Below are positions 35,534 to 59,738 of a DNA stretch of 64,000 bases, piece by piece; the first letter of the stretch is position 1, and each line of letters opens with the position of its first letter. Origin of the DNA: Bacillus niameyensis (lineage in GTDB: Bacteria > Bacillota > Bacilli > Bacillales > Bacillaceae_C); the NCBI RefSeq assembly GCF_001375535.1, contig NZ_LN831197.1, positions 2,410,805-2,474,804 of the forward strand, in the 5' to 3' direction. The notes below the pieces were generated by a model, which saw nothing but the letters and a program-made list of their open reading frames with translations, had not been told where the DNA came from and searched no databases. Position numbers and translations under genes: made by a program.

Positions 35534-35800
35534 CTCATGGAGAGTAAGCATCAAAATACAATAAGTAATTGTCTCATGACCCTTTCTCACGGAAAAACAG
35601 TGTCAAAGGTTCATGATAAGTGTTCTCATAGCCCTTTCCTCCAGATTAACTGCATCAAAGGGCCATGATAAGTGCTCTCATAGCCCTTTCCTCCAGAATA
35701 ACCGCATCAAAGGGCTATGATAAGTGCTCTCATAGCCCTTTCCTCCAGATTAACTGCATCAAAGGGCCATGATAGGAGACCTCGCGGCACTTTGAGATGG
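35515..35800. repeat. Tandem array of 52-bp hairpin units (six anchors)
   Basis: The 3' arms begin at 35523, 35575, 35627, 35679, 35731 and 35783, each exactly 52 bases apart. Central units read TCATAGCCCTTT, a 19-base spacer, AAAGGGC(C/T)ATGA and a loop TAAGTG(C/T)TC, so each arm pairs with that of the next unit (12 pairs, perfect for AAAGGGCTATGA/TCATAGCCCTTT). The first and last units carry different stems (GTGGCGC, GCGGCAC) with the same loop. It fills the space between convergent YeiH and bmrD genes. Confidence 0.9.
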
Positions 35801-43188: not shown

Positions 43189-43460
43189 ATAAAAAAGCCC
43201 TCAGCTAAACACAAAACTGCGCTTAGCTGAGGGCGATCTTGATCGCGGTGCCACCTCAGATTGAAGATTAAATTTCCCCATCTTTTTCGGGTACTACCAT
43301 ACCCTATCCATGTAACGACGGAATATCGTGTTCCCCTACTTAATTGTTCAGGAAACCACTCGCAAGCCCATTCTGCGAAATCTCTCGTACCGGGTTCACA
43401 CCACCGCCGGCTCTCTGAAACGAAAAATCTTTCGCATACTCTTCTTGCTCTACGTTTTAA
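43189..43460 (-). promoter_or_regulatory. Proximal Trp T-box riboswitch of trpE
   Basis: T-box sequence AGGTGGCACCGCG (43244-43256) followed by terminator GCCCTCAGCTAA...TTAGCTGAGGGC and TTTTTT. Stem I has AGAGAG, a CCGG/CCGG apical stem with GGTGTGAA, then GCAGAATGGGC, whose codon is UGG (complement at 43368-43370). The UGGN bulge reads UGGC, which pairs with a G discriminator as in tRNA-Trp. Confidence 0.92.
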
Positions 43461-43577
43461 TGCTATTTAATTTTGATGAAGTCTTGTGCACCCATTTTTT
43501 GGGCAATGACGAGTAAAGCTGCCTCAATTGCTAATAAAACTTTAGCTACAGCTAATCAACAATACACATATAAAAAC

Positions 43578-43830
43578 GCAAAAAGGCCCCTCATCCAAAG
43601 GACGAAGGACCGTGGTACCACCTTAATTAGCTGACTTCAGCTCACTTTTCCACACGAGAATTCCATGTGTTTCCCCCTTGTAACGACGGGTTTTCGCCAA
43701 AGCCTACTTTCTTGAAAACGAGTTCGGTTTGGAAGCTCAGAAGTCCATTCACAATGCATGAGCACACCAGTTTCCACCAACCACTGGCTCTCTTTTGTGC
43801 CATTACTTTGTTACTACTCTTCATCATAGC
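43578..43830 (-). promoter_or_regulatory. Distal Trp T-box riboswitch of trpE
   Basis: T-box sequence AAGGTGGTACCACGG (43611-43625) followed by hairpin GGTCCTTCGTCC/GGATGAGGGGCC and TTTTT. Stem I has AGAGAG, apical CCAGT/ACTGG with GGTGGAAA, and GTGAATGGAC, codon UGG (complement at 43745-43747). The bulge is UGGU rather than UGGC, giving only a G-U match to a G discriminator. A second complete element on the same transcript. Confidence 0.9.
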
Positions 43831-43855
43831 TAATATTTTCAATTTGTTGCTTCTG

Positions 43856-49890: not shown

Positions 49891-49927
49891 AAAGGAGCGG
49901 GATCTTTTTAAGTGATCCCGCTCCTTT
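49891..49927 (+). terminator. Terminator after the NERD gene, origin of the 20-bp array
   Basis: AAAGGAGCGGGATC and GATCCCGCTCCTTT form a perfect 14-pair stem. The 3' arm GATCCCGCTC is also the first unit of the 20-bp array that follows. Confidence 0.85.
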
Positions 49928-50593
49928 AGCTCAGATGTTGCTCATATATCCTAGATCTTGCTCTTATTTCACAGATCTCGCTCATATTTCTCAGATCTTG
50001 CTCTTATATCCTAGATCTCGCTCATATTTCACAGATCTTGCTCATATATCCTAGATCTCGCTCATATTTCCCAGATCCCGCTCATATATCACAGATCTCG
50101 CTCATATTTCACAGATCTCGCTCTTATAACACAGATCCCGCTCATATTTCTCAGATCTCGCTCATATTTCACAGATCCCGCTCTTATAACACAGATCCCG
50201 CTCATATTTCTCAGATCTCGCTCATATATCACAGAACTTGCTCATATATCACAGATCCCGCTCTTATAACACAGATCCCGCTCTTATAACACAGATCTCG
50301 CTCTTATAACACAGATCCCGCTCATATATCACAGATCTCGCTCATATTTCCCAAATCTCGCTCATATTTCCCAGATCCCGCTCATATATCACAGATCCCG
50401 CTCATATATCACAGATCTTGCTCATATATCACAGATCTCGCTCATATATCACAGATCTCGCTCATATATCACAGATCTCGCTCTTATTTCCCAGAACTCG
50501 CTCATATATCACAGATCTCGCTCTTATAACACAGATCCCGCTCTTATAACACAGATCTCGCTCTTATTTCTCAGATCCCGCTCATATAGCCTA
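49914..50593. repeat. Tandem array of about 34 units of exactly 20 bp
   Basis: GATC(C/T)(C/T)GCTC(A/T)TATWWC(A/C)CA-type units start every 20 bases from 49914 to 50574 without a single indel over about 680 bp. Variation is confined to a few positions (CTCATATATC, CTCATATTTC, CTCTTATAAC; GATCTCG, GATCCCG, GATCTTG). Located between convergent NERD and small-membrane-protein genes. No spacers, so not CRISPR. Confidence 0.95.
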
Positions 50594-55889: not shown

Positions 55890-55985
55890 CCTAACCCTAT
55901 AGCCGAAGATAGAATTTATGTGTTACGCTATATCTACTTTTCCATGCTAAACTTACGCTAAATGAATGGAAAAGGAGAGATTAAG

Positions 55986-57119
55986 ATGACAGTAGAAATC
56001 AAAGCAGGCAAAAGATCTGTTACACCGTTTCGGTTTGATAATGTCGGAAGTTTCTTACGCCCGGAAAAATTGAAAAAAGCACGTGCAGCTTATGCTGATG
56101 GAAACCTCTCTGAAAATGAACTAACGAAAATTGAAGATGAGTGTATCGTTGAAGTCATTCAAAAGCAAAAAGAAGTCGGCCTTCAAGCCATTACAGACGG
56201 GGAATTCCGCCGGTCTTGGTGGCATTTAGACTTTATGTGGGGTTTGAATGGTGTAGAAAAGAATTCAATTGACCAAGGTTATGTTTTTCAAGGACAAGAA
56301 ACACGAGCGGAAACAGCTAGATTAACTGGAAAAATTAGCGGGGAAAATCATCCATTTGTTAAGCATTTTGCTTTTATTCAGCAATACGCTACTGATGAAG
56401 TTATTGCAAGGCAAACACTTCCCGCCCCTGCGCAATTTTTGTCTGAATTGAACCGTCCGCAAAATATCGAAGGCACAGAAGCAATTTATCCTGATCGTGA
56501 AGAGCTAGTTGCAGACATCGCAAAGGCTTATCAAACAGTAATTGCTGATTTATATAAGGCAGGATGCAGAAGTATTCAGTTGGATGATTGTACTTGGGGA
56601 TCTTTAGTAGACAAGGACCGATGGAATTCACGTACTAAAGGATCATCAGTAGAAGAAATTGGCGAATTGTATGTTCGCCTCAATAATTTAGCTATTAAAA
56701 ATGCTCCAGAAGATTTAATTGTCACAACACATGTTTGTCGCGGAAACTACAATTCTACTTGGTTCTCATCTGGTGGATATGACCCAATCGCGAATACTTT
56801 ATTTGCAAAGGAAAACGTAGCTGGCTTTTATTTAGAGTATGATACAGACCGTTCCGGAGATTTTGCCCCATTACAACATGTAGGAGAAGAAAAACTGGTT
56901 GTCCTAGGTCTTTTCTCATCCAAATTAGGTGAATTAGAAGACAAAGATGCGATTAAAGCCCGTATTGAAGAAGCTGCAAAATACGTGGACATCGAGCGAC
57001 TTTGCATCAGCCCACAATGTGGTTTCGCATCTACAGAAGAAGGTAATATTTTAACAGAAGAACAACAATGGAACAAACTGCGCTTAATTAAAGAAGTGGC
57101 GGAGGAAGTTTGGGGATAA
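55986..57119 (+). CDS. MetE C-terminal-domain methyltransferase (YxjG/YxjH-like)
   Basis: A 377-residue cobalamin-independent methionine synthase C-domain protein, matching B. subtilis YxjG/YxjH (377-378). Zinc ligands are visible as HVC (TTHVCRGNYNS, about 238) and Cys in CISPQCGFAS (about 337). The N-terminal FDNVGSFLRPEKL and ITDGEFRRSWWH are typical. These proteins lack the MetE N-domain and are thought to methylate homocysteine or related thiols from an alternative donor. ATG follows AAAAGGAGAG; an upstream ATG overlaps that site. Confidence 0.9.
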   Translation: MTVEIKAGKRSVTPFRFDNVGSFLRPEKLKKARAAYADGNLSENELTKIEDECIVEVIQKQKEVGLQAITDGEFRRSWWHLDFMWGLNGVEKNSIDQGYVFQGQETRAETARLTGKISGENHPFVKHFAFIQQYATDEVIARQTLPAPAQFLSELNRPQNIEGTEAIYPDREELVADIAKAYQTVIADLYKAGCRSIQLDDCTWGSLVDKDRWNSRTKGSSVEEIGELYVRLNNLAIKNAPEDLIVTTHVCRGNYNSTWFSSGGYDPIANTLFAKENVAGFYLEYDTDRSGDFAPLQHVGEEKLVVLGLFSSKLGELEDKDAIKARIEEAAKYVDIERLCISPQCGFASTEEGNILTEEQQWNKLRLIKEVAEEVWG

Positions 57120-57157
57120 AATTTTAAAGGAATGTTATATATTTCCGACTCTATCAT

Positions 57158-57197
57158 TTTACGGTCATTGATACCCTTATCAATGACCGTTCTTTAA
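57158..57197 (+). terminator. Terminator after the YxjG/H-like gene
   Basis: ACGGTCATTGATA and TATCAATGACCGT form a perfect 13-pair stem with a short loop, followed by TCTTT. The CGGTCA/TGACCG core recurs in the array that follows. Confidence 0.85.
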
Positions 57198-57214
57198 TGA
57201 ATTTCTTTTGGATA

Positions 57215-57832
57215 CATGAAACGGTCACTGTTTGTGCGGAACAACGCCCAAAATGGAATGTTCTTAGGACAAACGGTAACGATTGGCTACGAATCGTTAC
57301 TGTCATGCGACGCTTTCAAGCCTAACGGGCACGATTCACTTCGAATCGTTACCGTCATACGATGCTCCCAAGCTAAACGGGCACGATTCACTTCGAATCG
57401 TTACCGTCATACGATGCTCCCAAGCTAAACGGGCACGATTCACTTCGAATCGTTACCATCATGCGACGCTTTCAAGGCTAATGGGCACGATTCACTTCGA
57501 ATCGTTACCATCATGCGACGCTTTCAAGGCTAACGGGCACGATTCACTTCGAATCGTTACCGCCATGCGACGCTTTCAAGGCTAACGGGCACGATTCACT
57601 TCGAATCGTTACCGTCATACGATGCTCCCAAGCTAAACGGGCACGATTCACTTCGAATCGTTACCGCCATGAGGTGCTTTCAAGGCTAATGGGCACGTAT
57701 CGCTTCGAATCGTTACCATCATACAAGACTTTCAAATCTAGCGGGCACAATTCGCTCTGAATCGTTACCGCCATGAGGTGCTTTCAAGTCAAACGGTCAC
57801 TGTTCGCTTTAGAACAATGACCGTTTTAAAAT
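57215..57832. repeat. Tandem array of 52-bp hairpin units (11 in phase plus terminal unit)
   Basis: 3' arms of type GAATCGTTACCG begin at 57239, 57291, 57343, 57395, 57447, 57499, 57551, 57603, 57655, 57707 and 57759, each exactly 52 apart, and a last unit at 57812. Each unit reads ACGGGCACGATTC, loop ACTTC, GAATCGTTACCGT, then a 21-base spacer (CATGCGACGCTTTCAAGGCTA or CATACGATGCTCCCAAGCTAA type). The last unit is a terminator for the minus-strand gene (AAACGGTCA...TGACCGTTTT). Between convergent genes. Confidence 0.95.
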
Positions 57833-57834
57833 TT
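57790..57834 (-). terminator. Terminator after the DsbA-family gene, last unit of the array
   Basis: On the minus strand AAAACGGTCATTGTTC pairs with GAACAGTGACCGTTT (one mismatch). The stem closes 15-20 bases after the DsbA-family stop. Confidence 0.7.
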
Positions 57835-57849
57835 CTGTATCGCTTCTTA

Positions 57850-58575
57850 TTATTTATTATCCGGAATTACACAATTTCCATCGACACAGCTTGCATCATC
57901 GGCACCACCCGATAAATCTTGCAAAACTGGCGCATCATTCTCTTCTTGCCATACTTTCTCAAGAGCACCACTGAAAGTTTCAACAGGCTGCGCTCCCGAA
58001 ATGGCATATTTTTGATTAATGACAAAAAACGGAACACCGCGCACTCCAATTTGTTGTGCCGTATTTTCATCGTAACGGACATCATCGGCAAAAGCTGTCT
58101 CATTTTTTAACACGCTTACTACTTCCTCACGATCTAAACCAACACTTACAGCAAGTTCAGCAAGTGTATCATGGTCACTCATCTTTTTCCCATCTGTAAA
58201 ATATCCATGGAGTAACGTTTCCGTTAGGGCTTGATCTTTCCCCTTCGTTTTTGCAAAATGAGCAAGTCTATGCGCATCAAATGTATTCGTTGGAACCATC
58301 CTGTCAAAATTAAACTGCAAACCGACGCTTGCGGCTTGTTGGCCGACCCCTTCATTCATTCGCTTAGCTTCCTCAACACTCATCCCGTATTTAGTAGCCA
58401 ATGCCTCGTGAATAGTCCTATCTTGGTCTTGCGGTGAATTCGGATCAAGCTCATAACTCCGGAATACTACATCCACCTTGTCCCGTTGCGGAAATTTTTC
58501 CAAAGCCTGCTCCAAACAGCGCTTTCCTATATAACAAAAAGGACAAACGAAATCTGACCATACTTCAACTTGCAT
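57850..58575 (-). CDS. DsbA-family oxidoreductase (FrnE/YwbO-like)
   Basis: A 241-residue cytoplasmic thioredoxin-fold protein with an inserted helical domain. The active-site motif is CPFC in WSDFVCPFCYIGKRC (about residues 8-22), and the cis-Pro loop reads GVRGVPFFVIN (about 168). Two further Cys occur near the C-terminus (SCVDGNC). No signal peptide, as in FrnE and YwbO. ATG lies eight bases after AGGAG; a GTG three codons upstream lacks spacing. Follows pheA by 15 bases, so likely co-transcribed. Confidence 0.9.
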   Translation of the reverse strand: MQVEVWSDFVCPFCYIGKRCLEQALEKFPQRDKVDVVFRSYELDPNSPQDQDRTIHEALATKYGMSVEEAKRMNEGVGQQAASVGLQFNFDRMVPTNTFDAHRLAHFAKTKGKDQALTETLLHGYFTDGKKMSDHDTLAELAVSVGLDREEVVSVLKNETAFADDVRYDENTAQQIGVRGVPFFVINQKYAISGAQPVETFSGALEKVWQEENDAPVLQDLSGGADDASCVDGNCVIPDNK

Positions 58576-58590
58576 TCTTCCCACTCCTAT

Positions 58591-59511: not shown

Positions 59512-59738
59512 AGAAAAGCGGAAGGCGGCGCTTAGCGACGTACGAACTTTAGAAAAGGATGAACGGCTAAAAACGCGCCGTCCTGGCGCAACGCCCTTCT
59601 GACCAACGTCCTGTTGGCCTGAGATAAAGGAAACACGGCGAAGCATAAGCCGATGTTGACTTATCGTAGGAAGAAGCTGAAAGTTCGCTAGTCGCTGCCG
59701 CCTGAAGCTAGACAGAGAAAAGCGCTAGAGCTAGACAC
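59512..59738. repeat. Dispersed Bacillus-type intergenic repeat
   Basis: About 225 bp, GC-richer than its surroundings, non-coding, with stems GCGCC/GGCGC (59575, 59585) and CCAAC/GTTGG (59603, 59613). It ends TGTCTAGCTCTAGCGC (minus strand) directly at the ppaC stop codon. Segments such as GGCGCAACGCCCTTCTGACC are familiar to me from other Bacillus intergenic regions. A fragment recurs at 24986. Confidence 0.6.

Follow-up and report, generated by a model that had tools for sequence, protein, structure and literature searches.

The window analysed here is a 64,000-nucleotide stretch of the Bacillus niameyensis genome (GCF_001375535.1, contig NZ_LN831197.1, positions 2,410,805 to 2,474,804). 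Between a yxjG/yxjH-like gene and a gene of the DsbA family, which converge, it contains an intergenic tandem array with a period of 52 bp (10.2 copies, score 652 in Tandem Repeats Finder, TRF). This array is one of the 52-nt tandem repeats that have been published for Bacillus without an explanation (PMC8161180), and it is an orphan copy of a sequence family that we call F1. As set out below, it is probably the orphan of a module in which a gene for a type I NERD protein is accompanied, past its 3' end, by a 51–53-bp satellite that would act as a phased binding platform. It is this proposed NERD-satellite module that is new; the array class itself has already been published.

The 52-bp Array and Its Setting

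The ten dyads of the window array (Table 1) are centred at 57288, 57340, 57392, 57444, 57496, 57548, 57600, 57652, 57704 and 57756; every step equals 52 bp, and the direct-repeat copies are likewise spaced by exactly 52. A preliminary description of this DNA had counted eleven 52-bp units. The exact spacing stands, but the number becomes ten full dyads with one decayed relative on each side. The position between convergent genes is confirmed, and the perfect stem of the first unit and the two-pair mismatch common to later units are indeed seen in the sequence.

Table 1. Features of the window discussed in the text (positions in the window; a dot marks features without strand).
Feature	Position	Strand	Basis and remarks
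F1 array	57272..57800	.	Period 52, made up of ten 27-bp dyads of the type GGGCACGATT-N7-AATCGTTACC with 25-bp linkers
First full dyad, perfect stem GTAACGATT/AATCGTTAC	57275..57301	.	Read from the sequence; minus strand terminator-like (57300-57276) by scan
Decayed related hairpin CGGTCACTGTT/AACAACGCCC, one register left of the array	57219..57249	.	Arm match I11; centre about 53 bp off
Related hairpin AAACGGTCACTGTTC/GAACAATGACCGTTT at the right end of the array	57791..57826	.	Inverted repeat I10; about 52.5 bp off; no terminator score
Terminator-like hairpin of the yxjG-like gene	57161..57190	+	Terminator scan
yxjG/yxjH-like gene (Meth_synt_2), pointing towards the array	55962..57119	+	Open reading frame and domain match
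DsbA-family gene, pointing towards the array	57850..58584	-	Open reading frame and domain match
Second 52-bp array, F2 arms GGGCCATGA..TCATAGCCC, 3.9 copies, between convergent genes	35572..35774	.	TRF, dyad analysis
Type II NERD gene, 320 aa	48922..49884	+	Partner type of 20–21-bp arrays
20-bp array, 33.8 copies	49914..50588	.	TRF; 30 bp downstream of the type II NERD gene

Subirana and Messeguer (2021) reported 1886 repeats of 51–53 nt across 176 Bacillus genomes; about 30% of the species have them. According to their paper, the size is constant and sequence conservation is lacking, a separate class of 20–21 nt is described, and a polymerising protein or a small RNA is suggested (PMC8161180). 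The window array is of this length, is made of at least four noncoding repeats and carries in each unit a short signal together with its reverse (AATCGTKMCC and its complement), and its genome comprises several unrelated sequence families of one length. The preliminary statement that no described family fits is thereby superseded.

Elsewhere in this genome, relatives in the same register recur at some ten sites, so that the array is more than a chance pattern and the refuting condition of the preliminary description, arrays missing from other intergenic regions, does not hold. The largest count 77.5 units (L018) and 118.9 units (L015). The latter is a 6.2-kb array (L015 4686-10866) whose units form a higher-order repeat of 260 bp (5 x 52), and its flanks recur at arrays near C6 97 kb, 1866 kb and 2964 kb. 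Roughly even sampling of 720 kb, which together with the window makes 784 kb, gave eight noncoding arrays with a period of 51 or 52 and at least three kinds of arms (F1, F2 and F3) distinguished by eye; multiples aside, the only other noncoding row with a period of at least 45 belongs to a 20/40-bp array as its 80-bp multiple. The eight arrays lie in the window and the twenty stretches beyond 1.96 Mb. No 51–52-bp array occurs in the sixteen 20-kb stretches from 0.01 to 1.75 Mb, nor in those sampled round the inferred terminus (G000 C6 0.2-1.85 Mb). In this genome, dnaA is at 3.02 Mb and the skew changes near 0.75 and 3.05 Mb.

Association with NERD Genes

Clustering of the open reading frames (ORFs) near arrays revealed one family that is present in six loci of different organisms. 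The nearest array is always on the 3' side of these six genes, within 170 bp in five. Its members carry the NERD domain (PF08378; E 7e-16 to 7e-19 in the five proteins tested), and NERD genes occur in 19/19 genomes tested, 2–12 in each. We then sampled 20 NERD genes of four genomes that bear arrays, choosing them blind to the presence of an array and excluding two genes of B. niameyensis for which one was already known: 12 have a 20–21/40–41- or 51–52-bp array within 200 bp of the stop, compared to 20 out of 793 ORFs in array-blind stretches of the same four genomes. Six genomes in which F1 arrays are few or lacking supplied 20 NERD genes; the pattern is seen in G003, G002 and G127, and none of the eight genes taken from G060 is followed by an array.

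The two array lengths are explained by two C-terminal types. The putative layout of type I proteins is a PD-(D/E)XK-like domain, a zinc ribbon of the CxxC kind and a C-terminus that resembles a winged helix, the ribbon being followed by a segment like LLFPDxKITTxxIxEWC..SKKTIRRIL. The C-terminus of type II resembles ITNxxxRxFL..NLPYxGxxKGRVY. Sorted by rule, 46 NERD-family ORFs comprise 24 of type I, 13 of type II and nine unclassified ones. A 50–54-bp TRF array lies within 164 bp of 22 of the 24 type I genes, none of which has a 20–21-bp array; the two exceptions, L135 and L173, carry F1 dyads 43 bp beyond the gene end. Type I genes fetched for reasons other than F1 arrays all have an array (16/16). 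For type II, arrays of 20/21/40–42 bp accompany 6/13 genes and arrays of 50–54 bp 0/13, and two of the nine unclassified genes have 20–21-bp arrays. Short open NERD pieces, apparently broken genes with 51–52-bp arrays 390–700 bp further on (L314, L319, L343 and L350), were excluded from the type I counts.

A profile of the type I C-terminus finds matches in 81 of 199 genomes of the order. In a fresh test, the 3' flank of one high-scoring match was taken from each of 20 genomes with previously unexamined NERD loci, and 18 of these flanks contain a 51–53-bp array. The other two (L360 and L363) carry diverged TGTCCTTCA/TGAAGGAC units by eye. An arm family TGTCCTTCA-N..-TGAAGGACA, close to the published B. 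coagulans family 8_52_18, adjoins the type I NERD genes of L350, L356, L364, L370, L371, L360 and L363.

In B. niameyensis itself, five type I matches were counted and four listed. By eye, their arrays are F1 at C6:4431500 (the 4427-kb array), F3 at C6:4391076 and F2 at C6:3264089, the last beside a short, broken type I NERD piece; the F2 array of the window shares its arm family with this array, again by eye. Every arm family named here has one type I gene in this genome, intact or broken, that of F3 being placed at C6:4391553. The window array has yxjG and dsbA as neighbours, with no NERD gene adjoining it and no type I gene upstream, and the F1 family's gene sits at C6:4431500, which is why we regard the window array as an orphan. 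The motif of the 20-bp array next to the type II gene of the window recurs reversed at L214 11830-12349, with 26 copies.

Helical Phase of the Repeats

A4 or T4 runs are present in the linkers of 69 of 93 F1-like arrays, compared to 26.6 in shuffled linkers, and lie near linker positions 2, 12 and 21. The spectrum of AT steps peaks at five per unit (k = 5), equal to 10.4 bp. This peak exceeds that of shuffles 3.42-fold in 89 F1 arrays, 2.97-fold in 11 others and 3.06-fold in 24 published families, some of which are related, against 1.28 in intergenic and 1.10 in coding control windows. With the dyad fixed and the linkers alone shuffled, the ratio is 2.31 (n = 86); with one array per organism it is 3.25, and k = 5 is the largest harmonic in 23 of 29 organisms. 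For fresh arrays (n = 12), obtained from 40 stretches of five genomes, the ratio is 2.65. Smaller peaks appear at k = 7 and k = 9, and at k = 8 with single bases in F1. The published set covers 24 of the 27 rows of its source table in the spectrum (the three excluded rows have 54 nt in two cases and 50 nt in one) and 23 in the phase test.

The A/T phase of the linkers lies half a turn off the dyad, with R = 0.92 for F1 arrays (67/89), 0.955 for others (13/19) and 0.668 for published families (13/23), and shuffled units have no preferred phase. Units that lack a dyad score of 6 were excluded from these tests (22/89 F1, 6/19 others, 10/23 published and 19/35 chosen by gene). For 35 arrays picked by gene, k = 5 stands 3.2-fold above shuffles (z 13.1), and 15 of the 16 arrays with a clear dyad have a linker phase close to 180 degrees. 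Fresh arrays agree in 3/3 cases at the preset dyad score of 6 and in 6/6 at a score of 5; three duplicates were dropped, the 257-bp array L289 was unused, and the open-frame filter was left off since it removes long arrays. In the whole-unit test, L261, L285 and L297 have other phases. An A/T phase half a turn off the dyad is the rule for wrapped DNA. Literature searches turned up no paper linking 52-nt repeats to curvature. The preliminary remark that 52 bp makes five helical turns proves to matter: the 10.4-bp harmonic is dominant and dyad-locked across many unrelated arrays, and it explains the constant length of these satellites.

Hairpin and Terminator Tests

RNA folding of the window array is 6.3 standard deviations below dinucleotide shuffles. 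Covariation was assessed in 42 distinct dyads picked for their match to the consensus, hence with only three stem pairs free to vary, and these pairs are unpaired in 36, 31 and 25 of the 42. Pairing amounts to 78.1%, below 500/500 shuffles (mean 84.8), and unique units with at most four mismatches (43 own, 277 others) follow the same trend. Compensatory changes, whose absence the preliminary description had named as refuting its reading, are thus lacking across species. As the stem positions do not covary, the hairpin is not what is conserved, and the cruciform and RNA-hairpin roles suggested earlier lose support because pairing is worse than in all shuffles. Protein binding, also among the roles suggested, is now favoured.

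A terminator scan of 57080-57900 gave two terminator-like sites, 57161-57190 (+) and 57300-57276 (-), with a shuffle mean of 1.0. The right-end hairpin, formerly taken as the terminator of the DsbA-family gene, received no score. An array of intrinsic terminators was rejected, a T-rich tract following the stem in just one of ten units, and with terminator-like character in 1/10 units the proposed spread from terminator-like ancestors is not supported. Other candidates were likewise set aside: no Rfam family matches at the array, no relative of it occurs in the plasmid collection that was searched, and its repeated linkers fail the unique-spacer criterion of an array of clustered regularly interspaced short palindromic repeats (CRISPR).

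Distribution and Genomic Context

A strict F1 pattern matches in six of 397 genomes of the order, B. niameyensis included. A wider scan of named genomes, with a gap of 12–42 allowed, yielded at least 108 stretches, 80 of which were listed. Among the matches listed, a period of 50–53 is seen in Neobacillus, Cytobacillus, Pseudoneobacillus, Cerasibacillus, Scopulibacillus, Salimicrobium, Pseudalkalibacillus, Siminovitchia, Robertmurraya and records named Bacillus, and one of 55–56 in Evansella; their loci have a period of 50–53 in 293 of 296 cases. Neighbouring dyads are 51–52 apart in 284/284 cases in the own loci and 50–54 apart in 318/323 elsewhere. The linkers mostly differ from site to site by eye. 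Duplicates (L117, L119, L122, L147 and L148, of L044, L059, L040, L021 and L056) were dropped from most counts; all or some of them stay in a few tallies, that of the dyad spacing among them, and they are removed from the gene-context count, while L070 was dropped as coding.

Gaps between convergent genes hold 28 of 67 arrays (one per orthologous site) versus 42 of 299 control gaps (p 1.4e-6; our own ORF calls). Orthologous F1 arrays adjoin purD in four Neobacillus-type genomes (L103, L110, L144 and L157), and several both begin and end with half a dyad. In 14 congeners with a dsbA match, neither an F1 array nor yxjG lies within 1.5 kb of dsbA. Past the dsbA orthologue, arrays of other sequence are found in G010 (52 bp; L312 2325-2800) and in G006 (21/41 bp; L302 2356-2498), and the 3' ends of dsbA genes may be a recurrent niche for arrays.

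We do not rely on arm polarity. The asymmetry between TA-half and GC-half agrees with the local GC skew in 57 of 76 arrays, in 45 of 58 at a skew of at least 0.05 and in 42 of 50 with one array per orthologous site (p 2e-6), a count from which nine rows, including several that disagree, were removed. At convergent sites only, agreement is 13/23 (p 0.64) or 13/18 (p 0.12). Arrays with an asymmetry score below 1 were left out, and three arrays of L015 were merged.

Elsewhere in the window, an Rfam Bacillaceae-1 RNA (59551-59617) lies about 1.7 kb from the F1 array and a tandem pair of T-box leaders occupies 43226-43836 on the minus strand.

A Possible NERD-Satellite Module

In the module that we consider probable, the type I NERD protein would bind the dyad of its own arm family through its C-terminal domain. 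The five-turn spacing, with A/T minor grooves facing one side, would let many copies bind on one face, and such cooperative binding may wrap or bend the DNA. Through nicking and repair, the nuclease-like domain might drive unit copy number and dispersal, leaving orphan arrays such as that of the window at gene 3' ends, possibly with a benefit to the host. The class as a whole has the A/T helical phase locked to the dyad that is expected of a wrapped or curved element. Two observations limit the phase rule: the window array on its own is phased weakly (p 0.08), and the L312 array has no k = 5 peak.

The same phase rule would also suit architectural DNA that is read by a general wrapping protein such as RemA, gyrase or HU, in which case NERD genes would simply lie where arrays tend to arise. 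For RemA, wrapping of DNA has been suggested and its AT-rich footprints are spaced by 10 bp (PMC8481266); it is encoded in 19/19 genomes, and arrays are enriched at convergent sites. However, the presence of RemA in every genome is uninformative, so that it was rejected as sole candidate. A general reader leaves unexplained that every arm family is paired with a NERD gene of its own and that array length follows the C-terminal type, which makes a RemA-style reading less likely; overall, we hold it to be unlikely. A neutral or parasitic satellite, useless to the host and multiplied by slippage, recombination or NERD cutting, would account for the homogenised arrays with higher-order repeats such as that of L015, for their patchy occurrence and for the arrays that still follow broken NERD genes. 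Yet length and dyad-locked phase are kept across unrelated sequences, and arrays persist at orthologous sites in several Neobacillus-type genomes, which leaves this explanation doubtful, if a serious contender.

Transcribed hairpins acting as a sponge or a transcription barrier would fit the RNA folding (z -6.3) and the reported transcription of 52-nt repeats in B. coagulans (PMC8625621). The poor pairing of the stems, the single terminator-like unit and the lack of an Rfam family at the array speak against such an RNA element, and RNA needs no length control to within one nucleotide; we judge this quite improbable. Least credible, to the point of being hardly worth entertaining, is a relative of repetitive extragenic palindromic sequences (REP) or bacterial interspersed mosaic elements (BIME) mobilised by a Y1 transposase (RAYT, the REP-associated tyrosine transposase). 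Palindromes in 3' intergenic DNA and flanks of a few hundred bp common to some arrays resemble such elements, but the transposase does not track the repeats: G249 has F1 arrays and no Y1 match, and Y1 is present in F1-negative genomes.

It is almost as likely as not, and we advance it tentatively, that the NERD-satellite module represents a new class in Bacilli, in which the C-terminal domain sets the period of the adjacent satellite (five turns for type I, two for type II) and the protein, equipped with zinc ribbon and winged helix, binds its own units cooperatively on a bendable platform in helical phase, multiplies or spreads them and seeds orphans. If true, the module would account for both published enigmatic satellite classes, of 52 and 20–21 nt. 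The puzzle posed in the literature is how satellites that lack sequence conservation keep a constant length, and what role they have. As the linked gene type names a likely reader, binding, cutting, copy number and function become testable, and if the partnership holds, this would be a new kind of gene-plus-repeat system.

Comparison with Known Systems

The neighbour genes share the NERD domain (PF08378) with other NERD proteins; we know of no link of these proteins to satellites, a point for which the literature was not searched. Compared with the PADLOC, NCBIfam and solved-sequence sets, they give weak partial matches (MkoA, PglW, MADS6 below cut-off, PvuII E 0.2). Their N-terminal part has a distant fold match to R2-type or restriction-like endonucleases but, unlike in those enzymes, no reverse transcriptase or methylase domain was matched. 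A repeat array beside a nuclease gene recalls CRISPR-Cas, whereas the linkers here are repeated and arrays also occur at many sites without the gene. Of the DNA wrapped by RemA or LrpC, that of RemA resembles the array phase in its 10-bp A/T spacing. AsnC-family genes are found in 17/19 genomes and are absent from the array-bearing G418 and G419, and AsnC/LrpC was therefore rejected as obligate partner.

The closest relatives are the 52-nt Bacillus repeats, which have in common with our arrays the length of 51–53 bp, the noncoding location, several families per genome and a signal plus its reverse per unit (PMC8161180). That paper reports neither sequence conservation nor a partner protein, and the word NERD is absent from it. 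Unlike in the published account, arm families here recur across genera, share the 10.4-bp phase and are linked to a gene type. The 20–21-nt repeats, described in the same paper (PMC8161180), here adjoin type II NERD genes, one of them in this window; they differ in having two turns per unit and a neighbour protein with another C-terminal domain.
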